A stretch of DNA of 64,000 bases, from positions 1 through 64,000 of IMG/VR virus record IMGVR_UViG_3300031963_011530. One strand, written 5' to 3'. Of the stretch, positions 14,189 through 37,735 are shown piece after piece (the stretch's first letter is position 1; the number at the start of each line of letters is the position of its first letter). The position numbers and the translations under genes are program-made. The notes below the pieces were generated by a model. The model was not told the DNA's origin and searched no databases. It worked only from the letters and a program-made list of their open reading frames with translations. Source of the stretch: a virus.

Positions 14189-14503
14189 CTATACCGAAAA
14201 GCTACTTCCACAGCCACAGGTCGTCTGTGCATTAGGGTTTTCTATAGTAAAAGTGTGTCCCATAATATCTTCTTTGAAATTCAAAGTTGCGGTTTCCAAA
14301 TATTGCATACTGAAAGAGTCTACAAGAATTGAAAAACCATCTAAAGGAATTTCAAAATCATCTTCGGAAACAGATTCTTCAAAATCAAAACCATATTTAA
14401 AACCAGAACATCCACCACCCTCAACATAGACCCTCAAGTATTTGTTTTCATCGTCTAAATATTGTTTGATTTCATTTACAGCAGATTCAGTTATATTAAG
14501 CAT
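14189..14503 (-). CDS. A-type iron-sulfur cluster carrier (IscA/ErpA/HesB family)
   Basis: At 104 residues the length is typical. The three family cysteines are present: C32 in GGGCSGFKYGF and C96/C98 in TTCGCGSSF at the C-terminus. These bind an Fe-S cluster for delivery to client enzymes. The start is the ATG at 14503, chosen because TAGGAG lies 6-10 bases upstream and the protein then begins MLNITESAVNEI as in the family; a longer frame to 14539 overlaps the divergent gene. The gene follows a cassette of eight radical SAM enzymes, each needing at least one [4Fe-4S] cluster, so supply to them is a reasonable inference. IscA-like genes also occur alone in marine phages. Confidence 0.92.
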   Translation of the reverse strand: MLNITESAVNEIKQYLDDENKYLRVYVEGGGCSGFKYGFDFEESVSEDDFEIPLDGFSILVDSFSMQYLETATLNFKEDIMGHTFTIENPNAQTTCGCGSSFSV

Positions 14504-14531
14504 TAATTTTCTCCTACTATATTTATTTGAT

Positions 14532-20252: not shown

Positions 20253-20866
20253 TTTTTTATATCCTTTTCCATGCTTGGTATTCCATTACCTTTAATTGTT
20301 TTCATAATAAAAACTTTAGGCTTTTTACCAATACTAAAATTGTTCAAATCATGAAATACTTCCCAATTATATCCTCTAAACATGTCTACGATAGGATCAG
20401 TATTAATTATATCTTTTGTATACCCCGTTACTTGAGTTCCATTATAATCAACTGTTACTAAAACATTCTTTAAACAATTTTGTCCTATAAACTGTATTGC
20501 TTCAAGTGTTGGTCCCATTTGTAAAGTTGCATCAGATAGATTTACCCAAACTAATTTTTCTGTAGTTAGAGCTATGCCTGCTGCTATACCCAATGAATCT
20601 CCCATAGTTTCTTCAGAAAAATCTACAAAATCAACTTCACTCATTTTTAAAACAGGACTTAATTTATGTATATCATCCAAATATCCCATTTTTTTCCATA
20701 TTATATAATAGGCTTGAGCTCCAAAAGGTTTTCCTATTATTATTTTATCGTCAGGTGTTACTAATTTTTCACTAAACAACTCCTCAATATAGTCCGACAT
20801 TGATAAAGCTGAAGGTATATGAGCAACATCTTTTTCAAAAGAATATTCTAAAATTTCTTTTTTCAT
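20183..20866 (-). CDS. Transketolase-like ThDP-binding (N-) subunit, 227 aa
   Basis: The segment GDSLGIAAGIAL and the Mg-ThDP motif region NLSDATLQMG...VLVTVDYNG correspond to the first subunit of split transketolases. The usual GDG of the motif reads SDA, keeping the metal-binding Asp, and the closing Asn is kept (DYNG). The C-terminal WHYRK is typical of the family. The start ATG at 20866 overlaps the glycosyltransferase by four bases. Its last 70 bases also encode the N-terminus and FAD motif of the halogenase. The partner domain is at 18461-18940. Its probable role is transfer of a two-carbon unit in sugar synthesis; the substrate is not known. Confidence 0.85.
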   Translation of the reverse strand: MKKEILEYSFEKDVAHIPSALSMSDYIEELFSEKLVTPDDKIIIGKPFGAQAYYIIWKKMGYLDDIHKLSPVLKMSEVDFVDFSEETMGDSLGIAAGIALTTEKLVWVNLSDATLQMGPTLEAIQFIGQNCLKNVLVTVDYNGTQVTGYTKDIINTDPIVDMFRGYNWEVFHDLNNFSIGKKPKVFIMKTIKGNGIPSMEKDIKKWHYRKIQSQEELQSLVQELQVI

Positions 20867-23710: not shown

Positions 23711-24784
23711 TCATTTGGGTTTTCTACTTAAGTAAAAATCGCCGCCACAATAATCCCAACGGCATATTGTGCCAGTTTTATATAATAAAGTTAATTTTGT
23801 TACCCCAATTTCATCATGTACTAAATTTGTATATGCTTTTTCTGGAGAACTTTCTCGTATGTAGTTTGTCATATGAATACCACAATTAAAAACATTACCA
23901 TCACCATTAATTGTTATACTTTCATTACCGGCTGCACAATGCCAACCTCTAGCATCTATACCGAATTTAAATAAATCATTCGTGGTATACTCAACATCAT
24001 CTATAAGATATTTCTGTTCTGTTTTATTATATTTTTTATAAAACTCCATATGTTTAGCTTCGATTTCTGGAGGGTATTTGTAGTGACAAAATCCATATAT
24101 CATTTCACTATTAACAATTTTATCATATTTCAGATAATCTACAATACTACTATAGAACTCATCTGGATATATTTCAATAATTTCTCCATTATAAAATAAA
24201 TGAGTTCTCTCCACATTCTCCAACATGATATCTAAATTATGAATCTCCACATTCATTTCTTTTAAAAGATTCCAATTGTGATTAAAATTATTAAATTTTT
24301 TTAATCTTTTTAATTCCAAGTAATGAAAGCTTACATTAAAAAGGTCACAATATGGTAGTATTTCTTTTAACTTTGATTCTTTTAAAGTCAAATTGGTTTG
24401 CATCTCATTAGACGCAATAATATTTGTTTGTTTTCCCTTATCATGAATATACTTCAGAATATCAACTATCTTAGGATGTGTTGTTGGTTCTCCACCATGA
24501 TAGTAAAACAGAACAGACTTTAATTTATTTTTTTGTAAGAATTCAAATATCTTATCAATCGTTTTTATAATATCTTCGTATTTGTAATGTTTACCACTAT
24601 GCCAGTGACAATAATTACATTTGAGGTCGCACGCTTCAGTAATTCTAAATGTAACGACATACTTAGACTCCATTATTGAACTGTTGTTTAATTGTAAAAC
24701 CTTGTAAGAACATTTAGGCTTTATTTGCCCAACTTGCATGTCCTCTTTTTTTCTAACTACTTTTATTTTTTCCCAGTTGGCCAT
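23711..24784 (-). CDS. Radical SAM enzyme with C-terminal Cys cluster, 357 aa
   Basis: The radical SAM motif is C52-x3-C56-x2-C59 (ACDLKCNYCHW), and YHGGEPTTHP is the GGE motif. C-terminal cysteines occur in GWHCAAGNESITINGDGNVFNCG and GTICRWDYCGG, a SPASM/Twitch-like arrangement that could bind an auxiliary cluster. The DG-V-x-x-C block resembles peptide-modifying radical SAM enzymes. The ATG at 24784 overlaps the U32-like gene by 22 bases; an ATG at 24739 just after AGAGG is an alternative start. It shares its C-terminal pattern with 26349-27251 and 33842-34690, so the three are probably paralogues. Confidence 0.88.
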   Translation of the reverse strand: MANWEKIKVVRKKEDMQVGQIKPKCSYKVLQLNNSSIMESKYVVTFRITEACDLKCNYCHWHSGKHYKYEDIIKTIDKIFEFLQKNKLKSVLFYYHGGEPTTHPKIVDILKYIHDKGKQTNIIASNEMQTNLTLKESKLKEILPYCDLFNVSFHYLELKRLKKFNNFNHNWNLLKEMNVEIHNLDIMLENVERTHLFYNGEIIEIYPDEFYSSIVDYLKYDKIVNSEMIYGFCHYKYPPEIEAKHMEFYKKYNKTEQKYLIDDVEYTTNDLFKFGIDARGWHCAAGNESITINGDGNVFNCGIHMTNYIRESSPEKAYTNLVHDEIGVTKLTLLYKTGTICRWDYCGGDFYLSRKPK

Positions 24785-25596
24785 TTTACAATATTAACAG
24801 ATTTGCTATTTAAAACGAATCTCATTAATTCTCCATAGTATTCATCATCTTTCATTTCTCTACCAGTAATTTTAAAACTCCTAACTCCATCTTTTATTAA
24901 TTTTTCCATCGCTAATGGTTTTATATCCATACATTCATATTTACTATCTTTGTTGAAATCAAACTTAGGAAGCCAACATTCTTCCACTTCCTTACTATAC
25001 GGTCTACCGGCGGTATTTTCATCTGCAATTGCCTTGAAGTGTGCATCCCAATGTTTACATCCATAAACACAAGTATCATTCAGCATTACTTCCCACTTTG
25101 TTTTGTCCAGTTCGTTAGACCTAGGATCAAATATGTGTTCAAACCTAGGAACGATCCAATCATAATTTTCTTCCAATTTTTTATAAAATTCTATATCTTT
25201 ATCTTGTAAAGGTATGTTTAATAGTCCCATTCCAGTAATACTGTAAATTAAATCGTATAATGGAAATTTTTCTCTAACATATTTTCTCAAGTCATCATTC
25301 ACAATAATTAAAGCATTTCCTTTTTTGTGAAATTTCTCCAGTAAATGATTTCCCAATTCGTCAGTCAAATCAATATTATGATTACTAAATGTTAAAGCAA
25401 TCTTGATATTCTTACTATAATAATATTCTATCAAATTATCTTTATAATAAACATCCCTGTTTATTCTACCTCCATTCCATTTACATTTATTAATGCCGTC
25501 ATAAACCACCAACTCTTTAGAATCGACTATGTTTTGACTTAAAAATTTTATTAAGGGAACAAACTTACTAAAAGCTCCGGCTAAAAGATATCTCAT
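24763..25596 (-). CDS. U32-peptidase-like protein (paralogue a), 277 aa
   Basis: The paralogue of 21656-22516. It shares WNGGRINRDV, DELGNHLLEKF, YSITG, MLNDTCVYGCKHWDAHFKAI (two Cys) and GVRSFKITGREM. The pattern (TIM-barrel blocks, NDTC, later Cys, terminal FKITGR) is what I associate with the U32 family, known for Fe-S proteins that hydroxylate rRNA or ubiquinone precursors without O2. Two copies lie within 3 kb, both next to radical SAM or oxygenase genes. The start ATG at 25596 lies two bases from the end of the upstream radical SAM gene. Catalysis is not shown by sequence alone. Confidence 0.6.
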   Translation of the reverse strand: MRYLLAGAFSKFVPLIKFLSQNIVDSKELVVYDGINKCKWNGGRINRDVYYKDNLIEYYYSKNIKIALTFSNHNIDLTDELGNHLLEKFHKKGNALIIVNDDLRKYVREKFPLYDLIYSITGMGLLNIPLQDKDIEFYKKLEENYDWIVPRFEHIFDPRSNELDKTKWEVMLNDTCVYGCKHWDAHFKAIADENTAGRPYSKEVEECWLPKFDFNKDSKYECMDIKPLAMEKLIKDGVRSFKITGREMKDDEYYGELMRFVLNSKSVNIVKWPTGKK

Positions 25597-25597
25597 A

Positions 25598-26356
25598 TTA
25601 CATTAGAAAACATTTTGTTTTCGGGCACAATTTGTTGACTTTGATTCTATAACAACAGTTATACAAATCTAAGTTGGGTGAGTAGAGGAAGTATTTATCT
25701 TTATATAAACAAGGTTTTCCAAAAGTGTTAAAATTAGAATCTATCCAAAGATCACTTCGTTGTTTACCTAGTCTTTCAATATCTTCAAATTTAATTATTT
25801 TTCGATACATTAAATTGTTTTTTAAAGAAAGATATTGTGCGAGTAAAGTATCACTATGACCATCACCAAAGTCTGTTACTGGAGTTAAAAATAAATTGTC
25901 GTGGTCTAAAGATTTTTTTACTGCAAAATAATAATCTATAGCTTCTTTACCGGTGTACATCACATCTATAGTTTTAATATTAACTTTAGTATCTTTTAAT
26001 CCCTGAACTATATCTTCTATAGACGTTTCTGTAGGATGAACACTTATATTAATTTTAAATGGATCTTTTATTTTTTGAATTGTTTTTCTACTATAACTAC
26101 TGAAGTTCGTCTGTATAACAAATGGAATATTATATTCATTAAATGTTTTTATTATAAAATTTATTTTTGGATGAACAAATGGTTCCCCTCCAAAAATAAA
26201 TATTTCTACACCGGGATATGTCTCACCTAATTTTTTTATAAAATCTTTTATTTTTTCTTCAGTCAATTCTGGTCGCATACTAGGATCCAAATTTGTACAA
26301 TACTCACATTTATAATTACATTTAAGTGTAATTTCCCATTCAACAATCTTACTCAT
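25598..26356 (-). CDS. Radical SAM enzyme, short, with C-terminal Cys-rich tail, 252 aa
   Basis: The motif C13-x3-C17-x2-C20 (KCNYKCEYC) and IFGGEPFVHP (GGE) define a radical SAM core. The C-terminus has five cysteines (GKPCLYK, YNCCYRI, KLCPKTKCF), enough to bind an auxiliary cluster. It lacks a full SPASM domain. It overlaps the upstream radical SAM gene by 8 bases. The substrate cannot be assigned; of the eight radical SAM proteins here it is the shortest. Confidence 0.88.
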   Translation of the reverse strand: MSKIVEWEITLKCNYKCEYCTNLDPSMRPELTEEKIKDFIKKLGETYPGVEIFIFGGEPFVHPKINFIIKTFNEYNIPFVIQTNFSSYSRKTIQKIKDPFKINISVHPTETSIEDIVQGLKDTKVNIKTIDVMYTGKEAIDYYFAVKKSLDHDNLFLTPVTDFGDGHSDTLLAQYLSLKNNLMYRKIIKFEDIERLGKQRSDLWIDSNFNTFGKPCLYKDKYFLYSPNLDLYNCCYRIKVNKLCPKTKCFLM

Positions 26357-27251
26357 TTTTAATTTTTAATTGTTTTAAAAGACCATCACAATTGCAAGCT
26401 TTATGTGGACAAACCATAGGAACAGTTTTGGTTATATTTTTAAAAAAATCTCTATTGCTTATGAGATTAATATTATCAGTTTTTGGCATACAAAATTTAA
26501 CAACGTTACCTCTAACGTCAATTTCATAATTATTGTTGTAACAATTCCATCCTTTAAAATTGGTTAATTTATCCCTAAATATAATATAATCATTAAAAAA
26601 ATCATCATCATATTTTAATTCTTTTTCATACGACTCTAAAAAAGAAAAATATTCCCAAAAATCTTTTCTATAGTTAAACAATTTAGTGATACTATTACCA
26701 TATAAAAAGTGTGGATGTATTTTTAAATTGGGTATTTTTTCCAAAGTTTCAAACATATTTTTTATTTTTGGCCATAAACTTTTATCATGGTGAAGCATAA
26801 CATTCACTTTACATTTATAACCTCTACCCAGCATATGATGTATATTATTGAGAAATCTATTTTCATCCGTACAATCGGCCGGGTGGTAACTGAATAGGAA
26901 AGCCAGTTTATCATAATGTGGGTGAAGTGTCAAATCCTTTTCAGCATTTGTTACAACATAAACCCAATTAAATTTCTCCATTTTACTGATTGAGTCTAAA
27001 ATATGGTAATAATAAGGACCTAAAGTTGGTTCGCCACCCAACAAACCCAAATTAAAATTCAAACTACTTCGATTTAAAGCATCCAATACAGCATCAATTG
27101 TTTTTTTACTAGATAGTTTACCCCATTCTTTACCATACTCATTTCTAGCGTAACAATAAGAACACTTGAGTTGACAAATAGTAAGACTATCCCAATGAAT
27201 ATTAATATGATCCGGATCTTGATCTTTATGATGTTGTATTTTGTATTTCAT
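26349..27251 (-). CDS. Radical SAM enzyme with auxiliary Cys motif, 300 aa
   Basis: C26-x3-C30-x2-C33 (ICQLKCSYC) and LLGGEPTLGP identify the core. The C-terminal half has GWNCYNNNYEIDVRGNVVKFC and VCPHKACNCDG, giving five or six further cysteines in a pattern shared with 33842-34690 and 23711-24784. The gene starts 26 bases inside the glycosyltransferase gene. The shared C-terminal block implies that the three enzymes treat related substrates, or act in succession on one. Confidence 0.9.
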   Translation of the reverse strand: MKYKIQHHKDQDPDHINIHWDSLTICQLKCSYCYARNEYGKEWGKLSSKKTIDAVLDALNRSSLNFNLGLLGGEPTLGPYYYHILDSISKMEKFNWVYVVTNAEKDLTLHPHYDKLAFLFSYHPADCTDENRFLNNIHHMLGRGYKCKVNVMLHHDKSLWPKIKNMFETLEKIPNLKIHPHFLYGNSITKLFNYRKDFWEYFSFLESYEKELKYDDDFFNDYIIFRDKLTNFKGWNCYNNNYEIDVRGNVVKFCMPKTDNINLISNRDFFKNITKTVPMVCPHKACNCDGLLKQLKIKNE

Positions 27252-27912
27252 AATTTTTTAAAAAGTCCAAAGATGCCGTTACGTTTATACTTTTTTTTGT
27301 TCCAGGAAAAGAAATATTATCATTACCATCTTTTGTTTGGTAGTAAAATACTTTATTGGTCATTCTAAATTTCTTCGACTTTTGTGAAGCGTGATAGACC
27401 AGTCTAATATCATTATGAATATTGTTATCTATTCCAAAATAAAAATCTTCAATTACACTTCTTTTAAATATAAATTGTCCTAATTGTAAATGTTCTAAGT
27501 TTAATTTATTTAAAAATTCACATTTATCGTGTATAACTTCATCTTTAAACAAATTTATTATTTCAAAAGTATTATCTGGCTTATAGGTAGGACAATAATT
27601 TCCAGCTATAATATCAGCATCAAAACTTTGTTCGAAAAATTGCTTCCTCAAATAGTCATCATCTTCCAAAAAATAAATATATTTTCCTTTAGACTTAAGA
27701 AATAAAAATTCATATACACTTGATATATTATTAAATTTTTCATAATAATAATTTACATTAGTATTTTCAATTTCTTTTATATCAGAACTATCATTATTTA
27801 CAATTACTTCTATTTTTGGAGTTAAATATGATAAAATTGAATTTAAACTTCTTTCAAAAAGTTTAGGCCTATTATGCGTAAGTATTAAAATAGATAAATC
27901 AATGTTTACCAT
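27226..27912 (-). CDS. GT2-type glycosyltransferase, 228 aa
   Basis: The N-terminus VNIDLSILILTHNRPKLFERSL is typical of GT2 enzymes, and YFLEDDDYLRKQFF carries the DxD metal motif. The protein is short and ends soon after the catalytic core. It should transfer a sugar from a nucleotide donor; the acceptor is unknown. It is embedded between two radical SAM genes with 7- and 26-base overlaps, which ties glycosylation to the same transcript as the radical SAM enzymes. Confidence 0.85.
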   Translation of the reverse strand: MVNIDLSILILTHNRPKLFERSLNSILSYLTPKIEVIVNNDSSDIKEIENTNVNYYYEKFNNISSVYEFLFLKSKGKYIYFLEDDDYLRKQFFEQSFDADIIAGNYCPTYKPDNTFEIINLFKDEVIHDKCEFLNKLNLEHLQLGQFIFKRSVIEDFYFGIDNNIHNDIRLVYHASQKSKKFRMTNKVFYYQTKDGNDNISFPGTKKSINVTASLDFLKNYEIQNTTS

Positions 27913-28898
27913 ATTAATCTTATCTTTTCTCCAAAAACAGGATTTGGACTAACTTTATCTTTAAGTTCATTTTCTATACCATCACATATATAAAAATATT
28001 TACACTTTGTACATTCTTCGGTTTTAAAGTAACTATAAATTCTCATTCGTTCCGCTTCAGAGAAAGAATGTTCTACTTTTTCATTGTGCGTATAATTTTT
28101 TTTAGTGTCTAATGTTCCACTATAAACCGCTTTATTCCAATCTTTAAAGTCATATATATGATGATAATGGTTTTTTATATATTTTTCTTTTGATGGCATA
28201 AAACAATAAGGAAAATATCTAGCATTAACTTCGGTTGAGTCCTTAAGGTCATCAATATAATTTGAAACATAGGAACAAATTGTTCCGTAATCAATAGGAT
28301 AAAAATCTTTATTGTCTCTCCAATAATTGAGAGCAATAAAATTAACTTGGGTGGGGTTTAAAGATTTTATAAAAGAAGTGTCTATTTTATTGTAGTTTTC
28401 ATGATATACAGTTGTGTTCAATCTAACTTCAATATTTAAACGGTGGGAGTTCTCAATAGCTTTAATTAAATTTTTAAAAGCTCCTTTTTTGCCTACAATT
28501 TTATCATGAACACTTTCATCCGTACAATGTAGACTAAAGAGTATCTCTCTTAAACCTAAGTCGAAACTTTTTTGAATAAATTCTTTATCACTAAATTTAC
28601 CTCCGTGACTAAGGCAACTAATTCTATCAAATTTATTTTGGCAATAATTTAATATATTAAACCAATTCGGTTCTACACTACTTTCACCACCACTAAGATC
28701 GATTTCTTTTATGCCATAGTCAAGTAAATAATCTATTCTTTTGTAGATTTTATCAAGTTCATCTCTCTCAGACAAACTATTTTTATAGTAACAAAATTCA
28801 CATTTATAATTACAGAGTTTACCAGTATCTAATTTAGCTCTATTGTTAATAGGTCTATCATAATCTATCAGTATTTTTTTAACACTTAATTTGTTCAT
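27906..28898 (-). CDS. Radical SAM enzyme, 330 aa
   Basis: C29-x3-C33-x2-C36 (LCNYKCEFCYY) with LSGGESSVEPNW as the GGE motif. GLREILFSLHC and EVRLNTTVYHENY follow the usual barrel strands. Near the C-terminus ECTKCKYFYICDG gives a Cys trio for one auxiliary cluster. The start is taken at the ATG at 28898; the frame extends to a GTG at 28922, and neither has a strong ribosome site. It overlaps the preceding gene's end by about 20 bases. Its similarity to the other seven radical SAM proteins is limited to the core, so it is not a recent duplicate. Confidence 0.88.
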   Translation of the reverse strand: MNKLSVKKILIDYDRPINNRAKLDTGKLCNYKCEFCYYKNSLSERDELDKIYKRIDYLLDYGIKEIDLSGGESSVEPNWFNILNYCQNKFDRISCLSHGGKFSDKEFIQKSFDLGLREILFSLHCTDESVHDKIVGKKGAFKNLIKAIENSHRLNIEVRLNTTVYHENYNKIDTSFIKSLNPTQVNFIALNYWRDNKDFYPIDYGTICSYVSNYIDDLKDSTEVNARYFPYCFMPSKEKYIKNHYHHIYDFKDWNKAVYSGTLDTKKNYTHNEKVEHSFSEAERMRIYSYFKTEECTKCKYFYICDGIENELKDKVSPNPVFGEKIRLIW

Positions 28899-29757
28899 TG
28901 ATATAATTGATAAAAAAATCACCTTGTTCTAAAGATGTATTTTTTATTCCATCCTTTTTTCTAATTTCTAAAGCTTTATCATAATAATCTATATCATAAA
29001 CAACTTCTTTATCATAGTGCATACACTCTAAAATAAATCTATTGGAACAATCTTTTTTGCCAGGTAATTTAGTATAAACATATGTAGAAAATTTATTCCA
29101 CATGTCTGGGACTGGAACTTTATATGTTTTTATTTTTGTATAAAGTTCTGGTTTATTTGTAAATACTACTGTGTTGTTGAAAGAATATTTATTGGAAATT
29201 TCAGTTATTGTTTCTTCAGACATAAATCTACTAACATCTGTCAAATAAAACATTACAGAATTTTCTACATCATCATTTATTTTTTTAAATTTTGAATATA
29301 ATAATTTTTTCTTATAATCAAAAACATTTATTTTTTTAGGAATATCATCATATATTTCAAAATCTTGAAATAAGTGACATTGCGCTTTATTGTTTATATA
29401 AAAGTCATAATTTTTTTCATGACATCTGAATAGAAAAAAATTATCTGTATATATTTCCGAATTATCAAGTCTTGAAGATCCGTCAACTATCAATAAATTT
29501 TTTGACAATAATAGTTTTGGAAAAGGATGGTATATTAAATTTTCAACAACTAGATTATCATATTTCGTGTTTAAAGCTATATTAAATTCGTCTATTGTAG
29601 TACCATCGGACAATAGTATACAAGGATTTAGATTTGTCCAATTTTTTATAGCCCAATAATATTCAATCATTTCAAATAAATGACCACAAATTCCAAATTT
29701 GAAACCAAATGAAGTAGTTATAACTAAATCATAGTTTCTCAGATTTACTAAAGACAC
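28879..29757 (-). CDS. Hypothetical protein, GT-B-like, 292 aa
   Basis: The start is GTG at 29757, four bases after the stop of the gene upstream. No certain family is recognised. The N-terminus NYDLVITTSFGFKFGICGHLFEMI reads as a beta-strand, glycine loop and helix. Near the end, KDCSNRFILECMHYDKEVVYDI resembles the donor-binding region of GT-B glycosyltransferases (D-x-x-R-F-x-x-E-C). Together these hint at a nucleotide-sugar enzyme. The codon bias and tight overlap match the neighbours. Confidence 0.5.
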   Translation of the reverse strand: MSLVNLRNYDLVITTSFGFKFGICGHLFEMIEYYWAIKNWTNLNPCILLSDGTTIDEFNIALNTKYDNLVVENLIYHPFPKLLLSKNLLIVDGSSRLDNSEIYTDNFFLFRCHEKNYDFYINNKAQCHLFQDFEIYDDIPKKINVFDYKKKLLYSKFKKINDDVENSVMFYLTDVSRFMSEETITEISNKYSFNNTVVFTNKPELYTKIKTYKVPVPDMWNKFSTYVYTKLPGKKDCSNRFILECMHYDKEVVYDIDYYDKALEIRKKDGIKNTSLEQGDFFINYINEQIKC

Positions 29758-29761
29758 AGAA

Positions 29762-30754
29762 TTAACCGGTGATAATTTGTTCCACTGTTAATGGAGTATA
29801 ACCTAAAAATTCAAAAAAGTTTTTTGGAATATTATTCGCAATTTCTAAATTTAAATTATTTTCTAATAACGTCATATATTTTTCAAAACCTTCATAATCT
29901 TTATAATTATTTGGTCTCATTCCAATTTTTAAATTTTTTATCAAGTCAAAATCCAAAAAGTTTTGATTTAACTGATCCATCAAATTTTCATTTATTAATT
30001 CTAATCTATAGTTTTCTTTTTCATAAAGACTAATAATACCATTATAATTTACAATTTTTTCCGGAAAATCTATCTGATTTTCATTTAGATGAAAATTTTT
30101 ATTGGTTAAAAAATCTTCATATCTAATATTAAAGGTATTTGGTAAATTTTTAACCATTACCATATTTAAAATAGAAATTAATCCATTTTTTAACTGACAA
30201 TCAGGATCTAATTGATTGCCAAAAATGCAAGCACTAGGATTCCTGAAAAAGTTTATAACTCTTACATTTTCTGTTCCTAACTTTTCCCTTAGGGTTTTTA
30301 TACAAGAAGCAGAAAATCTTCCAGTCCATATGTTAGTTATACTATCATCCTTCAAGTCATCTAAAAGTTTTTGATACTCCATTTCATATTCTAAAGATTC
30401 ATAATTTTCCAAAAAACATTCTTCACTGAATAAATTATCTATACTTGTTGTAGGCCAAGAATCTATGAAATGATGTTCTACAATTTTTTCATTAATGTCG
30501 TGACTAAACTTATCTATTTCTTCCAATAGATAAGTTTTCTGACCTTCGGTCATTATTAAAAGATCATTGTTTATATTACCCAATTCCGAGTTATTGCAAT
30601 ATATATTTGTTCCTTCTGAATCGAAAATTATGAATCCATCATTTTTATATTTTACAGTATAATCTTCAAAATTCCATATCTTTTCAGAATCTAAAATACT
30701 TCTAGCAATATATCTTAAATGTATACTTTTAGGTCCATTTATTAAGGTTATCAA
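29762..30754 (-). CDS. Sulfotransferase-like hypothetical protein, 330 aa
   Basis: The start is TTG at 30754: AAGGAG lies 7 bases upstream and the N-terminus LITLINGPKSIHLRYIARSIL reads as the strand, phosphate-binding loop and helix of a nucleotide-binding fold. NVRVINFFRNPSACIFGNQ resembles the 3'-phosphate-binding RxP...S region of PAPS sulfotransferases, FNIRYEDFL resembles the family's RYEDL block, and it ends FFEFLGYTPL as many do. Sequence support is weak; a kinase-like fold is an alternative. If correct, it would add sulfate to a sugar or Tyr. Confidence 0.5.
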   Translation of the reverse strand: MITLINGPKSIHLRYIARSILDSEKIWNFEDYTVKYKNDGFIIFDSEGTNIYCNNSELGNINNDLLIMTEGQKTYLLEEIDKFSHDINEKIVEHHFIDSWPTTSIDNLFSEECFLENYESLEYEMEYQKLLDDLKDDSITNIWTGRFSASCIKTLREKLGTENVRVINFFRNPSACIFGNQLDPDCQLKNGLISILNMVMVKNLPNTFNIRYEDFLTNKNFHLNENQIDFPEKIVNYNGIISLYEKENYRLELINENLMDQLNQNFLDFDLIKNLKIGMRPNNYKDYEGFEKYMTLLENNLNLEIANNIPKNFFEFLGYTPLTVEQIITG

Positions 30755-30756
30755 AT

Positions 30757-31161
30757 TTATCTCCTTAGATAAGACTCTACAATTTCATTAACACTCGTTT
30801 CATCATTCAAGTTTGATAAATTATTTAATTTTTCAATAATATCGTAAAATTCATCTTTTTTTCTTTGTAATTCTTTTATAGAATCTCTAAGATTAATATA
30901 TTTTTCCAAATCATTTATTAATTGTATATCACCAGTTTCTATAATTTTTATATAAATTTCTTCCCTATTATGTTCACTAATAAAATAACCTTTTGACGTA
31001 AATTCATTATTTAACATTAAAAAACTTACAAAATCCAAAAGTTTAAAAGTTAAAAGTTCATCTCCAAAAATTCCTCTTGCTTTTAACTTACATGCATTAA
31101 TTGCTTTTCCAGCATAAGTATTCGCATCAATACCTTCAATTTCAACTCTATCATTTTTCAT
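30757..31161 (-). CDS. Hypothetical helical protein, 134 aa
   Basis: Not recognised. It begins MKNDRVEIEGIDANTYAGKAI, has a hydrophobic helix LLTFKLLDFVSFLMLNN, and ends with a charged coiled-coil-like region (residues about 85-115, ELQRKKDEFYDIIEKLNNL). The start ATG at 31161 overlaps the membrane protein gene by 11 bases, with GAGAAAT upstream. No catalytic motif is evident. Position suggests a partner of the membrane protein or of the Cys-rich protein two genes upstream. Confidence 0.6.
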   Translation of the reverse strand: MKNDRVEIEGIDANTYAGKAINACKLKARGIFGDELLTFKLLDFVSFLMLNNEFTSKGYFISEHNREEIYIKIIETGDIQLINDLEKYINLRDSIKELQRKKDEFYDIIEKLNNLSNLNDETSVNEIVESYLRR

Positions 31162-31576
31162 TTAATTTCTCCATTATTTTATAATTAAAATATAATCTTA
31201 TTACATTGGTGGCAGCATGATGCACAAATATTTGTGGTATAAAAGAATGTGTTATACTAGTAATGGATGCAATTAACAGTCCATTAAATATTTTAACTTT
31301 ATTGAAAGGATTTATCATTCCATCTTCGATCAATTTTACATACTGCTTTTTATATTTCTTTTCTTCTAAAACATCTTTTTCTGGTTTTCCACGATTAAAT
31401 GTTTCATCTTCAAACCATCGCAACATTAATCCATGATACATTGTGTTTATTCGTGCTATCACAAAGTTTTCTAAAAATTTTAAAGAGAAAAGACAATAAA
31501 TTAAAAAAATGATGGAACACAAAAATAACCAAGATCCCAATCTTATTCCATGATTAAAATGTCTTATGTAAGACAT
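31151..31576 (-). CDS. Small membrane protein of unknown role, 141 aa
   Basis: A strongly hydrophobic stretch runs from about residue 14 to 38 (GSWLFLCSIIFLIYCLFSLKF), a clear transmembrane segment. A second moderately hydrophobic stretch, GLLIASITSITHSFIPQIF, lies in the last third. The start is set at the ATG at 31576 because AGAAGAAA precedes it; the frame runs on to an ATG at 31612 with no ribosome site. It is the first gene after the Cys-rich protein, 47 bases away. It could export, anchor or localise a product; I recognise no transporter signature. Confidence 0.6.
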   Translation of the reverse strand: MSYIRHFNHGIRLGSWLFLCSIIFLIYCLFSLKFLENFVIARINTMYHGLMLRWFEDETFNRGKPEKDVLEEKKYKKQYVKLIEDGMINPFNKVKIFNGLLIASITSITHSFIPQIFVHHAATNVIRLYFNYKIMEKLNEK

Positions 31577-31623
31577 ATTGGTTTCTTCTAAATGATTTAG
31601 TTGAAAAAACATAATATTTTTAA

Positions 31624-32232
31624 TTAGGAGTAATTACAGTTGCAGGTACATGCGTAATTACAGTTACATGTACAATAATTGCAATTACAAGTACAATAAT
31701 TACAATTACAGGTGCAAACTTGCCCAGCAGAATTCAAAGCATTAATGAGAGAATTCAGAATTGTAGCTCTAATTTGAGTTGCTGGATCTGTGGTAACTGC
31801 TGCTGGAACACCAGTTGGTGCAGCAGTAGTAGGAAAGGTTGTTATTGTGGGACTATTTACTGTCGGACCATTAGGCAAATTAGCATTTGCACCAGACCAA
31901 TCATTATAAACTTGATTTGTCCTAGAATCGGCAACAGCAAAAAGTGCTCGGATATTATTAAAGTCGGCAGCTCTAATGTTTGTTGTTGATAACGAACCTT
32001 TAGTGGCGCTGCCTCCCCTTCTCGTATTTTCTTCTTTTGCTTTATCAAGCAGCGATTGAAAAAACGATCTAGTTATTAAATCCTCTCCAGCTACAACATT
32101 CGCAAGATCATAATTCACTGCATTACTACCAACAGTTCCTTGTATAGTTATTGATAGCCTTTTATGTTCACCAGCAGGAGTTGTGTTAGTACCTACTCCA
32201 AGAGTAGTGTCAAACATTTTACCTAAAGCCAT
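31624..32232 (-). CDS. Cys-rich repeat protein, candidate precursor for radical SAM modification, 202 aa
   Basis: Three parts are visible. Residues 1-112 form a soluble domain without cysteine (MALGKMFDTTLGVGTN...). About 113-150 is a Pro/Thr/Ala-rich linker, followed by a short helix (IRATILNSLINALNSAGQV). Residues 173-202 are four CTCNCNY units with one Ala inserted before the last and a final Ser. All 12 cysteines of the protein are in this tail. Codons vary silently between units, so selection holds the peptide sequence. The start ATG at 32232 follows AAAGGAAATATAAG. The gene sits amid eight radical SAM genes. By analogy with ranthipeptide/sactipeptide precursors, the tail would be a core and the rest leader or carrier. 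A metal-binding virion protein is the alternative. Not recognised as a named family. Confidence 0.7.
   Translation of the reverse strand: MALGKMFDTTLGVGTNTTPAGEHKRLSITIQGTVGSNAVNYDLANVVAGEDLITRSFFQSLLDKAKEENTRRGGSATKGSLSTTNIRAADFNNIRALFAVADSRTNQVYNDWSGANANLPNGPTVNSPTITTFPTTAAPTGVPAAVTTDPATQIRATILNSLINALNSAGQVCTCNCNYCTCNCNYCTCNCNYACTCNCNYS
31627..31716 (-). repeat. Four tandem CTCNCNY codon units (Cys-rich tail)
   Basis: The last 30 codons before the stop hold four heptapeptide units CTCNCNY, with GCA (Ala) inserted before the fourth and a TCC (Ser) before the stop. Thr is coded ACC, ACT, ACA and ACC across the units, and Cys, Asn and Tyr codons also alternate. This argues for old repeats kept at protein level, not fresh DNA slippage. 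Confidence 0.9.
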
Positions 32233-32233
32233 C

Positions 32234-32626
32234 TTATATTTCCTTTGATAAAAAATCTAAATTATTTTTTGCTGAACTTTTTGCTAAAAACTTTTCATAG
32301 TCATCAAGATCGGATGTTATAAAGTCTAAAGTTTCCAAGTCCGGCTCTTTATTACTAGATTCTTGAGTATTGTTATTTTGAATAATTGATAAAACCATTT
32401 GTTCAATATCAACACCCAAAGCATCACAAATTTGTTGAATGTAAACAGAAATATCAATTTGTTCCTTTTTCTCATTATTTTCAGAAATAGATTGTGCTAA
32501 ACTCATAGCTGTGTCAAAACCTATCCAAATTAAGTTGGCGAGGCCTTCATCATATTCCGATATCTCTTTAATATTTTGTGAAATACTCGTTAACTTTTCA
32601 ATTACAATTTCTCTATCAGTGCTCAT
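32234..32626 (-). CDS. Acidic hypothetical protein, 130 aa
   Basis: Not recognised. It is strongly acidic, with helical segments EIVIEKLTSISQNIKEIS and ISVYIQQICDALGVDIEQMVLS, and a C-terminal acidic run DLETLDFITSDLDDYEKFL. There is no signal peptide. It overlaps the upstream radical SAM gene by four bases (ATGA) and ends one base before the ATG of the Cys-rich protein. The tight spacing makes it a candidate recognition or chaperone protein for that substrate; this is inference from position only. Confidence 0.65.
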   Translation of the reverse strand: MSTDREIVIEKLTSISQNIKEISEYDEGLANLIWIGFDTAMSLAQSISENNEKKEQIDISVYIQQICDALGVDIEQMVLSIIQNNNTQESSNKEPDLETLDFITSDLDDYEKFLAKSSAKNNLDFLSKEI

Positions 32627-33516
32627 ATTATTACCTTTTCTTTAAAATCATGAAATTTCGGGGAGTTCTCATAATTACCATATGTGGTTACATTACCCTC
32701 GTCAGTAAAATAAGTTTTTACTTCCTTTCTCTCACCACATCCATCACACATGTCACAAAATAACTCACAAACTGGAACATCAATTATCCTATTTATCCAA
32801 TCTTTCCTGAGACTTTCTTTCATGTTTTGGAGCAAGTCAATTTGAATTTTATTGAGAGTTTCCCACGCAACGGATGTTATAAGACGGGTTGGTTTAAAAT
32901 ATCTAATAATATTGGACATATCTTCATAGCAATTATGAACGTTTTTGTGATGTATGGTGTATCTTATCCTAAATTTCATTGCGTTTTTTCTCAAATTTCT
33001 GAAAACTTGGATCATTAAATTAGTTGAATCCTTGCCGCCGTGTGTGACTCTATCCGAATTTCCTATACCGTCAAAACTAACGTCTATACTTAACAAGTTT
33101 TTTTTATAAAAAAAATTGTTTTTTGTTTCCTCTATAAAACTTTGTTTTAGGTATCTTATGCCATTTGTGTTTAAATTAAAATGAACATTTTTCTTTTTTG
33201 TATAGGCATAATTCATGGCATAACAAACATTATCCCATTCCATAGTAGCTTCTCCACCAAAAAGAACAAATAATGTTTGACTATTGGGATCTTCTCTTTC
33301 TATAACTCTATCGATACTTTTTTTAATATCTTCTTTAGACAAAATTTGTGGAGGGCGACCAGGCAAATCTTCATAACAATATGTACAAGCTAAATTACAT
33401 TTATTTGTGAAATATAATACATTTACTCCCGAATCTTTAGTTACAGTTTTATCCGTTTCATGTCCTACATAAAAATTTATTTGAGGATACTTTTTTTTGA
33501 AAGTTTCGGCGTTCAT
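32623..33516 (-). CDS. Radical SAM enzyme, 297 aa
   Basis: C40-x3-C44-x2-C47 (KCNLACTYCYE) and LFGGEATMEW show the core. VHFNLNTNGIRYL, LSIDVSFDGIGNSDRVTHG and RIRYTIHHKN follow the usual barrel order of peptide-modifying radical SAM enzymes. Auxiliary cysteines cluster in VCELFCDMCDGCGERKE near residue 250, followed by DEGNVTTYGNYENSP, a shortened SPASM-like tail. It is separated from the Cys-rich protein only by the 130-residue gene, so it is the closest candidate to act on it. Confidence 0.9.
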   Translation of the reverse strand: MNAETFKKKYPQINFYVGHETDKTVTKDSGVNVLYFTNKCNLACTYCYEDLPGRPPQILSKEDIKKSIDRVIEREDPNSQTLFVLFGGEATMEWDNVCYAMNYAYTKKKNVHFNLNTNGIRYLKQSFIEETKNNFFYKKNLLSIDVSFDGIGNSDRVTHGGKDSTNLMIQVFRNLRKNAMKFRIRYTIHHKNVHNCYEDMSNIIRYFKPTRLITSVAWETLNKIQIDLLQNMKESLRKDWINRIIDVPVCELFCDMCDGCGERKEVKTYFTDEGNVTTYGNYENSPKFHDFKEKVII

Positions 33517-33842
33517 ATTTCTTTTTTTCGTCTAGCACTTTTAGTTTTATCCATTGTATAGACATTATTAGGATTCATTTCTTTACGCTGTTTTGCCGTT
33601 TTGATTATGAATGACATATTGTCCAAAAATTTAACATAATCAAATTTATATTCGAATAAATGTCCTCTCTCAGTCAGTTCAAATCCTACATACTTACTAT
33701 CGACTTTGGCTTTTCCCTTTTTAGCTTCTTCTATTTGTTTCGACAAATCATCAACAGTCAAAACTTTATTGCTTTGATGTTCAACTGGTTGCATCTCAAC
33801 TTTAATAGGTATAGATACAATACTTTTAAAATTTTTCTTCAT
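33513..33842 (-). CDS. Basic hypothetical protein, 109 aa
   Basis: Not recognised. It begins MKKNFKSIVSIPIKVEMQPVE, has a charged helix VDDLSKQIEEAKKGKAKVD, then GFELTERGHLFEYKFDYVKFLDNM, and ends in a basic tail KTKSARRKKEI. There is no cysteine. The start ATG at 33842 shares one base with the stop of the radical SAM gene before it, and it overlaps the next radical SAM gene by four bases. This strict coupling between two radical SAM genes suggests a peptide-recognition or assembly role. Confidence 0.65.
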   Translation of the reverse strand: MKKNFKSIVSIPIKVEMQPVEHQSNKVLTVDDLSKQIEEAKKGKAKVDSKYVGFELTERGHLFEYKFDYVKFLDNMSFIIKTAKQRKEMNPNNVYTMDKTKSARRKKEI

Positions 33843-34690
33843 TAAATTTCCTTAGGATACATCATAAGTCCACCTTCACAAACTTCTTTTGGACAAATAA
33901 CCTTTTTCGTAATATCTTTTAAAGATAATGGCATAATTTCGTTAGTGCAAACATTTTTAACTACATTATTTAATTCTATTTGAAAAGATTCCGGTAAACA
34001 TTTATAGCCTTTGAAATTATTTTTTTTATCGTATAATAATCTTAAATTTGTAGTATTTTCTCGAAAGCCATTATCATATAAAACATCCATATCAATCATA
34101 GATTCAGCAGTAGAAGCTTCTACGAAAAAATCTTCTTCTAAATTACTTGAATAATATTTTGTGTCTCTTAAAAAATTTAATGTAAATTTTATATCCTCCA
34201 ACTTACACTTATCAATAATTTTTAAAATGTAATTTTTATATTCAGGCATCATACTTATATGAACCTCACAGTTTAGATTTTTACACTTATCTAAAAAATC
34301 TTCTTTGTGATATTCGGGGTGAAAGGATGCGTAATATGTAACTTTCGAAAAACTTTTTATATTTTTATAAAAATTTTCTGATCTAGTTAAGTTAGTAAAA
34401 AAATAAATTTTAGTTAAATTTTCAATTTCATTTAATCCACTTAATATATCTTCGATATTGGGATGTAATGTTGGTTCCCCACCAGTCAAACAAATCTCAA
34501 AAGGTTTAGAAATAGTTTTTAATCTACTTATAATCAATTTATAATTATTTGAAATTTGAGTATTATCATTATAATCATAACTCAAATGTTCCTTTACATT
34601 ACAGTAGGAACATTTTAAATTACACCAATTTAATATATGCCAGTTAATTCTAAGAATTTTATCTTGACTGGTGCAAGAAACAATTTTCAT
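33842..34690 (-). CDS. Radical SAM enzyme with auxiliary Cys motif, 282 aa
   Basis: C23-x3-C27-x2-C30 (WCNLKCSYC) and LTGGEPTLHPN mark the core. The C-terminus has GYKCLPESFQIELNNVVKNVC and VICPKEVCEGG, the same arrangement as 26349-27251. The start is ATG at 34690, one base past the stop of the upstream gene and preceded by AGGA; an upstream in-frame start would run into that gene. Probably a paralogue of the other two enzymes with this tail. Confidence 0.9.
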   Translation of the reverse strand: MKIVSCTSQDKILRINWHILNWCNLKCSYCNVKEHLSYDYNDNTQISNNYKLIISRLKTISKPFEICLTGGEPTLHPNIEDILSGLNEIENLTKIYFFTNLTRSENFYKNIKSFSKVTYYASFHPEYHKEDFLDKCKNLNCEVHISMMPEYKNYILKIIDKCKLEDIKFTLNFLRDTKYYSSNLEEDFFVEASTAESMIDMDVLYDNGFRENTTNLRLLYDKKNNFKGYKCLPESFQIELNNVVKNVCTNEIMPLSLKDITKKVICPKEVCEGGLMMYPKEI

Positions 34691-34691
34691 G

Positions 34692-35816
34692 TTAGTTCCT
34701 ACACTCCACACCTTCATTTTCAACACCAACATTTTCGATATAATTTAAAACCAAATCTTGGAAAACTCTTTCGTCTTTACACTCATCTACCACTCGCATT
34801 GCTTGTTCATAATATATGTGGAACAATTCACAAATACTATCTAATGGTTTATTATCATTCATAATTTGAGAATATGTACAACCGGCATTACACACCTGTT
34901 TCAAATCACACGGTTCACATTTATCATAATTTTTTGGATTAAAAATGTCTTGATAGTACCTAAAATTATACTGTTCATCCATTTTCATAATTTTTTTGGA
35001 TGCAAACCTAGCGCAAGGGTAGAATTCCCCAGAACTCATCAATACTCCACCATTAGTTCCAGCAAAACAACCAAAAGGTCTTTTACCTTTCACTAAACCA
35101 TAGAGAATATCTAAAATAGCTAGTTTTAAAAATCCTACTGAACATGGTTTACCAGATTTTATCTTTTCTATCCAAAAATCTGCAAGTCTTTCACATTCAT
35201 ATCTAAACTGTATTATATCATCTTCTGTCCAAACATCATCACGAACAATACTAAAATCGGGATGATCTATACCCCAATCTAAGAGAAATTCAAAATTCTC
35301 TTTCATGTCTTTTGTATTTCCTGGCCATATCATGACCTTACATCCGTTTGTCAAATTCTTTATGATATCTTTCTTATATTCATACATCGAAAGTATACCA
35401 TCAAACAATTCGCCTGTTTCTGGATTAGTATTTTCCAAAAGTGGAAGTAAAGGTCTACTCTCATTAGAACTCATACCATCAAAAGACCAAGAAACGCCAA
35501 CACCATTATTTCTCAAATAATTAGCTTTATCTTGATCAATCATCGTTAAATTTGTGATGATATTAATACCTTTACATTTATCATCCGATCTTAAATAAGG
35601 AACAGCGTGAGTTATTAGGTCCCAATTTAATAAAGGTTCACCACCAAAAAAACTTACATGATAATCTTTATCACCGGACCTTTGCATTAATTTTGGCAGG
35701 TCTTTCATACCCTGATCAAAAACTTCTTTCGTCATCCAAGTTGGTCTGTTTGCCACATAACAATACGGACAACCTAGATTACACTTTTCAGTAACACTTA
35801 CTTCTAATGTAAACAT
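34692..35816 (-). CDS. Radical SAM/SPASM-domain enzyme, 374 aa
   Basis: C12-x3-C16-x2-C19 (KCNLGCPYCYV) sits at the very N-terminus, with FFGGEPLLNW as the GGE motif. The C-terminal half is a SPASM-type domain. GCFAGTNGGVLMSSGEFYPC holds the C-x-n-G-x-C pair, and CEPCDLKQVCNAGC followed by CELF completes the seven-cysteine pattern for two auxiliary clusters. SPASM enzymes typically modify peptides or proteins (anSME, thioether-forming RiPP maturases). It is 9 bases downstream of another SPASM enzyme. The target is unknown; the Cys-rich protein two kb on is the obvious candidate. Confidence 0.92.
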   Translation of the reverse strand: MFTLEVSVTEKCNLGCPYCYVANRPTWMTKEVFDQGMKDLPKLMQRSGDKDYHVSFFGGEPLLNWDLITHAVPYLRSDDKCKGINIITNLTMIDQDKANYLRNNGVGVSWSFDGMSSNESRPLLPLLENTNPETGELFDGILSMYEYKKDIIKNLTNGCKVMIWPGNTKDMKENFEFLLDWGIDHPDFSIVRDDVWTEDDIIQFRYECERLADFWIEKIKSGKPCSVGFLKLAILDILYGLVKGKRPFGCFAGTNGGVLMSSGEFYPCARFASKKIMKMDEQYNFRYYQDIFNPKNYDKCEPCDLKQVCNAGCTYSQIMNDNKPLDSICELFHIYYEQAMRVVDECKDERVFQDLVLNYIENVGVENEGVECRN

Positions 35817-35825
35817 TTATTATCC

Positions 35826-36932
35826 TTATACTGTACACTGTTCAGCCTGAATTTTAATTACAGGCTTTTTATAACTCTTTAGTGCAGTTCTTAATGCGTG
35901 ATGTACTATCTCGTTTGTCTTAAATACTTTACAGACTTGCCAATTTGCTGTATGATCACTCCATTTTTCTAGATATGTTTCTTTTTCTGATTTTTCATAA
36001 GTTGCCGCATTACATTTCATACAGAATTGACTGTCACAGTTCATACAATCTAAAGGTTGATTCTTCAACGCATCCTTATACATTTGAGATTTTTCTTCAA
36101 TCAACTGATCCAAATCTGCAACTTTAAAAATATTTCCTAATTTATGTGAATGCGATTCTTTGTACATGCATCCATGGCAAGGACTCAAATCGCCGTTTAA
36201 ATCAACACTTACGTAATTTATACCTGCTGCACATAGAGCTCTAGATTGTTGGAACCATCCAAACTTCTCAGGAGGTAATTTATTTTCGTAAATATGTTTA
36301 GCAATTTTCTTCAATCCATCCTTTAATACTTCCAATTTAGGCATAAATTCTTCTTCTGTCAATTGGCTGTATAAATCTGGTGTTGGAAAATAATTTTTAT
36401 CCATTTCTATGACATCCAAAAAGGCTTCATAGATTAAGTGGAAATTTTCAGACGTTAGTACAGATTTCAGTGAAACATTCAATCCAGCTTCTTTAGCTGC
36501 AATATAGTTTGCTTTGACCATTGCTGACGATGGAGTACCAGATTTAGTCACTCTGGCGATGTCGTTTACAGGCTTTCCATCATATGAAACCTGCAACTTT
36601 AATCTACCGGGAATCTCATTGTGAATTCTAACCAAATCTTTTAAATATCTCTTTAAATACGTTCCATTTGTATAAAAGAAAAAAGAAAAACCAGGATCAT
36701 GTTTAAATTTTTCTATGACACCTTTACAAAAATCCCAATTAACAAATGGTTCACCACCCCAGAAATAAACATCTTTTTTGGGATCAGAAATTTTAGCCAT
36801 AAATTCTTCAACATTATCTAATGTCAAAGAAGTATTTTCTTCAAACTCGGTAGATAGTCCACATTCAAAACCTTCGGAACAATATGTGCAAGCTAAATTG
36901 CAGATACTTGTTACGTTTATATCTACTACCAT
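35826..36932 (-). CDS. Radical SAM/SPASM-domain enzyme, anSME-like, 368 aa
   Basis: C11-x3-C15-x2-C18 (ICNLACTYCSEG) and FWGGEPFVNW mark the core. The C-terminus has ALCAAGINYVSVDLNGDLSPCHGC and CMNCDSQFCMKCNAATY, the SPASM pattern with many cysteines. It resembles anaerobic sulfatase-maturase-like enzymes in layout, but no sulfatase is in the window. The start ATG at 36932 follows a strong AAGGAG. The 68-base gap upstream is the largest in this part of the cassette and may hold its promoter. It is the first of the run of radical SAM genes. Confidence 0.92.
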   Translation of the reverse strand: MVVDINVTSICNLACTYCSEGFECGLSTEFEENTSLTLDNVEEFMAKISDPKKDVYFWGGEPFVNWDFCKGVIEKFKHDPGFSFFFYTNGTYLKRYLKDLVRIHNEIPGRLKLQVSYDGKPVNDIARVTKSGTPSSAMVKANYIAAKEAGLNVSLKSVLTSENFHLIYEAFLDVIEMDKNYFPTPDLYSQLTEEEFMPKLEVLKDGLKKIAKHIYENKLPPEKFGWFQQSRALCAAGINYVSVDLNGDLSPCHGCMYKESHSHKLGNIFKVADLDQLIEEKSQMYKDALKNQPLDCMNCDSQFCMKCNAATYEKSEKETYLEKWSDHTANWQVCKVFKTNEIVHHALRTALKSYKKPVIKIQAEQCTV

Positions 36933-37000: not shown

Positions 37001-37735
37001 TTATTCATTTCTAAACTTTTGATTTAATTCCAAAACTTTTTTAAGTATTTCAACATCATAATTTTTAACTAAACACTCTGTGTCTTTTGGTAAACAAGGC
37101 CCACCAAATCCTTTTTTACCATCAGGACCAGGTACTTTGAAATGATTGGATCCCATCCATGGATGTTTAGAGAGAACAGTTATAGCTTCATTATAATCGA
37201 CACCCATTTTTTTAGCAACCTCATACATAGAGTTCATAAAAGTTACCTTAGTTGCATAAAAGGAATTCATGGTGTATTTTATAAATGATGCTGTATTAAT
37301 ATCTGTTACAAAAATATTTTCAGTATCTACGGTAGAATGTTTTTTATAAAGTTCCAAAGCCTGTTGAGATTTTTTACCAGAAAGTATTAATAAGTGTGGA
37401 TTTACAAAATCTTCTTTCGAGGTTGATCTTGATAGAAATTCTGGGTTATACACAATATCATATTTTTCAAGATATTGCGGCAAAATTGTGGACTTTACTA
37501 TAACTATTCCCTGATAGTTCATCTCGAAAATTTCATTCAATACTGAAGTAACCAATGAATAATTAGTATCGTCTGTTGGTGTGGGGACACAAACGAATAT
37601 TGCCTCTGGATTTAATAAACAGAGGCCTTTGACCGTTACGTGATTATATTTCGGATCACAAACGAAAACTTGGGTTTTGGAAAAGCCGTATTCAACGGCT
37701 TGTCCAACCATTCCATAACCAATAATTCCAATCAT
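37001..37735 (-). CDS. UDP-glucose/GDP-mannose dehydrogenase-like protein, short form, 244 aa
   Basis: MIGIIGYGMVGQAVEYG gives the Rossmann GxGxxG; IFVCVPTPTD, YNPEFLSRST and GFGGPCLPKDTE (catalytic Cys) are landmarks of the UDP-glucose/GDP-mannose dehydrogenase family. The protein ends soon after this cysteine, so the C-terminal nucleotide-sugar-binding domain of the usual 390-450 residue enzyme is missing. Short versions are common in phages. It probably oxidises a nucleotide sugar to the uronic acid, if the domain loss is tolerated. It begins three bases after the third fibre gene's stop and shares its strand. Confidence 0.88.
   Translation of the reverse strand: MIGIIGYGMVGQAVEYGFSKTQVFVCDPKYNHVTVKGLCLLNPEAIFVCVPTPTDDTNYSLVTSVLNEIFEMNYQGIVIVKSTILPQYLEKYDIVYNPEFLSRSTSKEDFVNPHLLILSGKKSQQALELYKKHSTVDTENIFVTDINTASFIKYTMNSFYATKVTFMNSMYEVAKKMGVDYNEAITVLSKHPWMGSNHFKVPGPDGKKGFGGPCLPKDTECLVKNYDVEILKKVLELNQKFRNE

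Follow-up and report, generated by a model that had tools for sequence, protein, structure and literature searches.

The stretch of DNA analyzed here (the window) comprises 64,000 nucleotides, positions 1 to 64,000 of the 96,057-base IMG/VR virus record IMGVR_UViG_3300031963_011530, and its genes, tail and baseplate genes among them, look like the structural region of a T4-like myovirus. An initial reading made from the letters alone had singled out one 202-residue protein for a Cys-rich repeat tail that follows a cysteine-free domain, a Pro/Thr-rich linker and a short helix, and all of these features are present. The 12 cysteines of the protein all fall in residues 173-199, that is, within the last 30 residues (hypergeometric chance of 1.3e-11), and are arranged in four CTCNCNY units that start at residues 173, 180, 187 and 195, a spacing of 7, 7 and 8 residues in which one Ala precedes the last unit. 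Silent codon variation had also been claimed for the repeats, and across 42 between-unit comparisons 22 codons differ, every one of them synonymously. Of the 164 window ORFs (stop to stop, at least 60 aa), no other has as many as three CxCxC motifs.

The AF2 model of the array protein, built from 22 sequences, is confident in the N-terminal part, with mean pLDDT per 10 residues of 73-90 over residues 41-110, 52-63 over 111-130 and 83-92 over 131-170 (including the helix, at 156-170), and falls below 40 over residues 181-202. An unmodified array that is predicted to lack structure fits a substrate role and proves nothing. Comparison of the model with PDB and BFVD gave no fold match under an E value of 0.001. 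At the sequence level the protein matches phrog_26958, a family of unknown function, and weakly the virion structural family phrog_30133 (0.0063); tblastn against INPHARED gave no match, probably owing to the low-complexity tail and the diverged N-part.

The array gene lies within a cassette of radical SAM (rSAM) genes (Table 1). The eight rSAM genes that the initial reading had counted on the array strand within 10 kb all match PF04055, and these eight are also the only PF04055 matches in the whole record. Two of them had been described as SPASM-like. For rSAM C this is supported by a PF13186 match that barely exceeds the cut-off (E value of 2.7e-4, 21.6 bits against 21.5), while rSAM A has no match when scanned with PF13186 and qualifies by its Cys pattern (C250-X12-G-X4-C268, C300-X2-C-X5-C-X3-C313, C329), which we take to be the canonical SPASM spacing.

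Table 1. Array gene and surrounding cassette in the window; fractions give recurrence among the 29 loci compared.
Feature	Position	Strand	Evidence or recurrence
Array protein (202 aa): Cys-free globular N-part, Pro/Thr linker, helix, Cys array	31624..32232	-	
Array: four CTCNCNY units, residues 173-202, ending CNCNYS	31627..31716	-	22/22 codon differences synonymous
sm130, small conserved protein just before array gene	32234..32626	-	13/29 loci
rSAM clade B (297 aa), C-terminal C-X3-C-X2-C-X2-C	32623..33516	-	22/29 loci
sm109, small conserved protein between rSAM A and B	33513..33842	-	16/29 loci
Further rSAM (296 aa)	33842..34732	-	PF04055
rSAM clade A (374 aa), SPASM-like Cys pattern	34692..35816	-	One per locus in 21/29 loci
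rSAM clade C (368 aa), SPASM-like	35826..36932	-	23/29 loci, including Campylobacter phage CPt10
UDP-glucose/GDP-mannose dehydrogenase (UGDH), cassette edge	37001..37735	-	Pfam; 12/29 loci
DUF6356 protein	31151..31612	-	Among 29 loci, here and in L009
phrog_25260 family protein, conserved after array gene	30757..31161	-	21/29 loci; PHROG 2e-15
Conserved cassette protein (330 aa)	29762..30754	-	13/29 loci; no Pfam match
Conserved cassette protein (292 aa, phrog_24441)	28879..29757	-	21/29 loci
Further rSAM (338 aa, phrog_27238)	27906..28922	-	PHROG, PF04055
Glycosyltransferase family 2 (GT2)	27226..27912	-	PF00535 3e-10; 11/29 loci
Further rSAM (300 aa), conserved downstream arm	26349..27251	-	PF04055 and rSAM tree
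Further rSAM (252 aa), conserved downstream arm	25598..26356	-	PF04055 and rSAM tree
Conserved cassette protein, NGGRINRD motif	24763..25596	-	14/29 loci; no Pfam match
Further rSAM (357 aa)	23711..24784	-	PF04055 and rSAM tree

We compared 29 array loci of about 12-24 kb each, two of which (L012 and L073) come from near-identical contigs and cover the same region. In a tree built from 149 rSAM proteins, three clades (A, B and C) have one member per locus, located at most six genes from the array. The shared order runs UGDH, rSAM C, rSAM A, sm109, rSAM B, sm130 and the array gene (with or without a Peptidase_S74 domain), followed by the phrog_25260 protein, the 330-aa and 292-aa proteins, an rSAM gene, GT2 and two more rSAM genes; the rSAM B gene is placed two or three genes before the array. 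The cassette is nearly complete in about 13 of the 29 loci and partial in others, and in L018, L019 and L070 hardly more than the array and rSAM genes is left of it. The small protein sm109 is a candidate recognition partner; weak Pfam matches of sm109 and sm130 were taken as chance. The same island of the window also encodes two Trp_halogenase proteins (18909-20252 and 16622-17887, minus strand; PF04820, 6e-65 and 1e-61). Two transketolase-like pieces lie at 20183-20866 and 18461-18940 (minus strand), the first matching PF00456 and the second recognized by reading only, and a small protein at 14189-14539 (minus strand) has a motif that, in our judgment, resembles HesB/IscA iron-sulphur carriers.

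Heptad arrays of the form C-x-C-[NDQ]-C-N-[YFH] were found on 47 IMG/VR contigs besides the window's record, by combining a protein search (32 IMG/VR loci) with exact patterns (31 and 48 stretches). The pattern is rare in prokaryotes, occurring in 3 of 84,980 genomes; these matches are two MAG contigs and one Clostridium contig, the latter also in IMG/VR, and each of the three also has an rSAM match. Across 478 units in 60 distinct heptad proteins the consensus is C-[T/P/I]-C-[N/D/Q]-C-N-[Y/F/H], with Tyr or Phe at position 7 in 418 units. Clustering of the 60 N-parts at 70% identity gave 51 groups, and linkage gave six families. Two loci have tandem array genes, four in L010 (8045-10606) and three in L014 (9501-11555), with differing N-parts and nearly the same arrays, and one array protein (L039, 4351-5136) has a Cys-rich N-part as well.

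The sequence-only reading had asked whether such arrays always occur together with rSAM genes. Far from occurring mostly without them, array homologues are accompanied by a PF04055 match in 37 of 42 virus records (35 of 35 records and then 2 of 7 further ones), and the rSAM clades flank the array. Matches per record range from 2 to 16, with 7 to 11 in 26 of the 35. The 42 records were taken from 48, leaving out the near-identical L003, L005-L008 and L024, and still include some near-duplicates, so that a Fisher test on them overstates independence; each of the six left out has ORFs with the rSAM-type CX3CX2C motif near the array. In four of the five records without a match the array lies within 1.7 kb of a contig end, and the fifth, G035, is a true miss, a 43.8-kb contig with the array in the middle and no rSAM gene. 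L094, a locus on a MAG that encodes a comparable array protein, has its rSAM gene 3 kb downstream of the array. As controls we examined 26 T4-like records, hand-picked from 77 baseplate gp6-like loci after exclusion of contigs with known arrays: rSAM matches occurred in 5 of these mostly shorter records, a length difference that favors misses (4 of the 5 were above the family cut-off), and the heptad array in none. Two of them, G047 and G061, have four and five rSAM matches and no heptad array, which means that rSAM genes do occur without the heptad array.

We also examined the converse, the presence of arrays near rSAM genes, using a strict rule of three CxCxC motifs in one ORF. An alignment scan with clade A gave 76 loci, and among the best 56 (L097-L152) an array was present in the fetched flanks of 49, 48 by the strict rule and one (L151) by a relaxed one. 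Because the scan query itself derived from array loci, the contigs newly found by the scan weigh most, and 13 of these 17, which include some near-duplicates, have an array, among them the previously unseen unit types CTCNCNF, CPCNCNF and CICNCNH. Of the four new contigs without one, L111 (the contig of L182) has flanks identical to those of L017 and lacks the array stretch, by deletion or assembly collapse; L114 and L124 end near the rSAM gene; and L135, in which an rSAM pair is present with no array adjoining, is an unexplained exception. Three Campylobacter records have no array near clade A and have one elsewhere in the genome. The 20 weaker loci (L153-L172) comprise 10 strict arrays, 1 relaxed (L164) and 9 with none. 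At L161-L163, L165 and L167-L170, proteins of 187-200 aa with a CTCTCTC-type tail stand directly before an rSAM gene that is only a distant relative of clade A. Of the 21 close loci in the corresponding scan with clade C, 20 have an array, strict in 15 and relaxed in 5, and the exception is once more the L111 contig. Arrays of CxC[ND]xx type occur in L151, L186, L189, L191 and L209.

Cys arrays were also sought at phage loci reached only as generic rSAM relatives. In 57 such loci (L192-L251 without L209, a close relative, L216, from Campylobacter, and L245, near-identical to the window; some near-duplicates are included), a Cys array was found on the rSAM strand in 21 by the strict rule and in 33 by the relaxed one, and on the opposite strand in none by the strict rule and 2 by the relaxed one (4 if segments without an ATG are counted). 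Four of the 21 strict matches (L228, L233, L240 and L250) are not Cys-terminated and may be something else. In 20 control regions (394 kb), drawn from the 26 T4-like records and so not matching every phage type of the generic set, strict matches occurred in 2, both of them segments without an ATG (L336 and L343), and relaxed matches in 1 or 3 by two ways of counting. The 23 generic loci without any array, together with G047 and G061, mean that phage rSAM genes also exist without one. Given the co-occurrence in 37 of 42 records, the recurring clades and the arrays found from clades A and C, we consider the link between array and rSAM genes well supported.

The array protein is also present in cultured phages. 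Using the DNA of the CPt10 relative, we found it in 15 INPHARED records of 11 Campylobacter phages, and these 11 phages all encode a clade A rSAM protein as well, again in 15 Campylobacter records (on different contigs in IBB_35). The group II phages CP220, CPt10, CP21 and IBB_35 thus share the array protein and clade A rSAM with the window; they differ from it in that their array protein has 534 aa with further Cys after the array, and rSAM A is not adjacent to the array and lies far from it within the genome. The record scanned for S74 gave no match. CPt10_1891 is annotated as hypothetical, with repeat regions x.1-x.6. Timms 2010 (PMC2853527) described a 21-bp repeat in CPT_0180/CPt10_1891 of CP220/CPt10, as well as 11-12 rSAM proteins in these phages, which were read as an aid to host metabolism; the passages that treat the repeat and the rSAM genes do not connect them with each other, and the part of the CP220 gel legend examined does not name the array protein. 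For IBB_35, 38 virion proteins have been reported (PMC3322345). The earlier remark that no described phage system of this kind was known needs amending in that Timms 2010 already had both the repeat and the rSAM genes. The literature search covered open-licence full texts, among which no paper joining phage fibres, Cys arrays and rSAM enzymes was found, a scope that does not imply absence from print.

The core rSAM proteins are related to enzymes that form thioethers in peptides. The best NCBIfam match of A, B and C is the model for the ranthipeptide maturase PapB (NF047865), with E values of 2.4e-38, 1.9e-22 and 5.1e-22 and scores of 132.2, 79.9 and 78.5 bits, all below the cut-off of 340; nif11, SCIFF and similar models come next, likewise under their curated cut-offs, and none of the three enzymes reaches a curated family threshold. 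Among PDB entries, A and C are closest to 5wgg, which we take to be the SCIFF thioether maturase CteB. Further likeness to the PapB and SCIFF systems lies in the repeated Cys-rich core with Asp/Asn near Cys and in the SPASM-like cysteines of A and C. PapB forms Cys-Asp/Glu thioethers and accepts Cys-Xn-Asp with n from 0 to 6 (PMC9413430), a tolerance that, by analogy, would allow the Cys/Asp spacings of C-x-C-D. The relationship of the enzymes is what suggests a thioether product. RRE scans of sm109, sm130 and the phrog_25260 protein gave no match, and the AF2 model of sm109 was poor (pLDDT of 62). A separate observation concerns Erwinia phage phiEaH2 (L330), in which a 68-aa ORF with a Cys/Gly-rich tail (3940-4146) lies upstream of two rSAM genes, separated from them by a single gene; it is a possible small phage RiPP precursor.

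What follows the array in its relatives points to tail fibres. Among the 60 distinct heptad proteins, 32 run into the start of an S74 domain (24 as a stub and 8 in full), 15 stop at the array, and the other 13 continue in other ways, 10 of them ending within 14 residues. In S74-type relatives the sequence directly after the array is SDxRLKxNI, and PF13884 matches occur somewhere in the record for 17 of 35 array records. The window's own record (G000) has no S74 match, and its protein stops at CNCNYS. Eight of the 29 loci (L010, L011, L014, L021, L068, L069, L071 and L074) encode the body of S74 in a gene of its own (88-103 aa), which follows the array gene directly in six cases; L069, the single example tested, gave matches to S74 and to fibre PHROGs. 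We considered and rejected a programmed frameshift at the stub, which ends in '...EIxYM' and a stop, since the rest of S74 forms its own ORF. In T5 pb1, cleavage occurs before Ser1264, with Lys1269 as partner, and has been proposed to unmask a binding site or tip (PMC4690869). The array relatives, with S-DERL-K, have the Ser and the Lys at +5 as in T5 pb1, from which the mature end would be ...CNCNY; this is the end point of L009, L034 and L064, and the window protein stops one residue later. The SDxRLK start, this Ser/Lys pair and PF13884 in relatives are shared with S74 fibres such as T5 pb1 and K1F endosialidase, whereas the segment before the presumed cut is here a Cys array beside rSAM genes and the S74 body can be a separate gene.

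Array proteins of several other phages match tail-fibre PHROGs and collagen, part of the tail-fibre matches stemming from collagen repeats, and Cys tails terminate collagen-type or other tail fibres. In Achromobacter phage JWF (L329), a fibre-like protein (3844-5295) contains a Hint domain (PF05203, 3e-12) directly behind the sequence NCNCDCNCNCS, and two genes downstream there is an rSAM gene; in L186 (11770-12441), a short CxC array runs into a Hint-like domain (PF07591, 3.4e-5, below the cut-off) and sits two genes after a clade C relative. An attachment to the virion, offered as a guess in the sequence-only reading, gains support from the S74 domains behind the array in relatives and from the tail-fibre families that array proteins of other phages match.

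Taking together the recurrent pairing, the cassette order, the self-processing domains behind the array, the tail-fibre domains elsewhere and the enzyme relationships, we consider it probable that the array protein is a subunit of a tail-fibre tip (or of a short fibre) whose Cys array is matured by the neighboring RiPP-type rSAM enzymes A, B and C. We hypothesize that the N-part serves as carrier and the C-terminal heptads as the substrate of the adjacent enzymes, which would install bonds on the cysteines, most likely thioethers to neighboring Asn/Asp (or Thr/Tyr). Many relatives carry an S74 chaperone behind the array; it would drive folding into a trimer and then release itself by a cut immediately ahead of the Ser in ...CNCNY/SDERLK. 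In two other phages a Hint-type domain follows the array in place of S74. In all versions, that of the window with its stop at ...CNCNYS included, the fibre would end in an exposed C-terminal tip formed by the modified array, and this covalently stapled surface would be the one that meets the host. Counting against this interpretation are G035, L135, G047 and G061, the generic rSAM loci devoid of arrays, the matches in control regions, the S74-free record of the window, the sub-threshold PapB scores, the RRE scans that gave no match, and the distance between clade A and the array in Campylobacter phages.

The original proposal of a RiPP-like precursor is partly upheld. rSAM genes do adjoin the gene of a Cys-rich protein, as expected of a RiPP locus with its maturase and precursor, and the conserved clades and their thioether-maturase relatives agree with it, but a released core, with leader removal, does not find support, since an S74 or Hint follower would be cut off and the array would stay on its carrier. 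Scans of window proteins brought up neither a peptidase nor an exporter. Relative to the ranthipeptides, the proposed substrate is here a phage structural protein that retains its carrier, a C-terminal follower rather than an N-terminal leader would be removed, and the rSAM proteins score far under the family cut-offs with no RRE found in the scans. We therefore regard as highly improbable a secreted phage RiPP, in which the array, once cut from its carrier, would act as a free toxin, signal or anti-competitor peptide. The Cys-rich C-terminal core behind a carrier, the kinship of the rSAM proteins to RiPP maturases and the possible small-peptide version in phiEaH2 speak for such a product; against it stand the scan for peptidases and exporters, the S74 and Hint-type domains behind the array, and the fact that Cys arrays also terminate collagen-type fibres.

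The best rival, which we nevertheless think unlikely, is an unmodified metal needle, in which the alternating cysteines of three chains would face the fibre axis and hold iron, zinc or an Fe-S cluster along it, and the rSAM enzymes would serve something else. The C-x-C-x-C alternation would set the cysteines on one strand face, S74 implies a trimer, and the prevailing Tyr or Phe at position 7 of the heptad also suits a needle. At the tip of the T4 long fibre (gp37), His-X-His motifs bind iron along the fibre axis. The likeness to gp37 lies in repeated metal-capable residues at a trimeric tip, known on the array side from sequence; here Cys replaces His, and rSAM genes adjoin. A needle of this kind leaves unexplained the recurrence of three rSAM clades near the array, the success of clade A and C relatives in predicting arrays (13/17 and 20/21) and the same-strand Cys tails at generic rSAM loci. 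We find it very unlikely that the genes are functionally unlinked neighbors, with the rSAM enzymes and glycosyltransferase altering host surface sugars or metabolism and the array a passenger of the host-recognition island. UGDH, GT2 and halogenase-family genes do lie within the island, some rSAM-bearing relatives have no heptad array, pelagimyophage host-recognition islands have been described as differing by rSAM cassettes (PMC7029224), and a role in host metabolism is what Timms 2010 proposed. The pairing recurs, however, in quite different surroundings (CPt10, JWF and the generic rSAM loci), and the three core rSAM proteins match peptide maturases best.

The matured fibre tip is thus our preferred interpretation, and the recurrence of the pairing in many other phages implies that viruses may chemically staple the part with which they contact the host. 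Whether this extends to many phage lineages, whose alternating-Cys fibre tips (of the CTCNCNY, CPCNCNF, CxCNxx, NCNCNC and CTCTCTC types) would be modified by dedicated rSAM enzymes and unmasked by a self-removing S74 or Hint follower, we judge to be evenly poised. A stapled receptor-binding tip of this kind was found in no paper searched. If the interpretation is correct, a chemistry of small peptides would be used to build virus particles, at the very part that recognizes the host. The surplus of rSAM genes noted in Campylobacter phages would then have a possible explanation, as would the rSAM cassettes that some marine myophages carry in their host-recognition islands. Enzymes able to staple long tandem Cys arrays while these sit on a folded carrier would also come into view, and the determinants of host range would gain a post-translational layer that is invisible in sequence alone.
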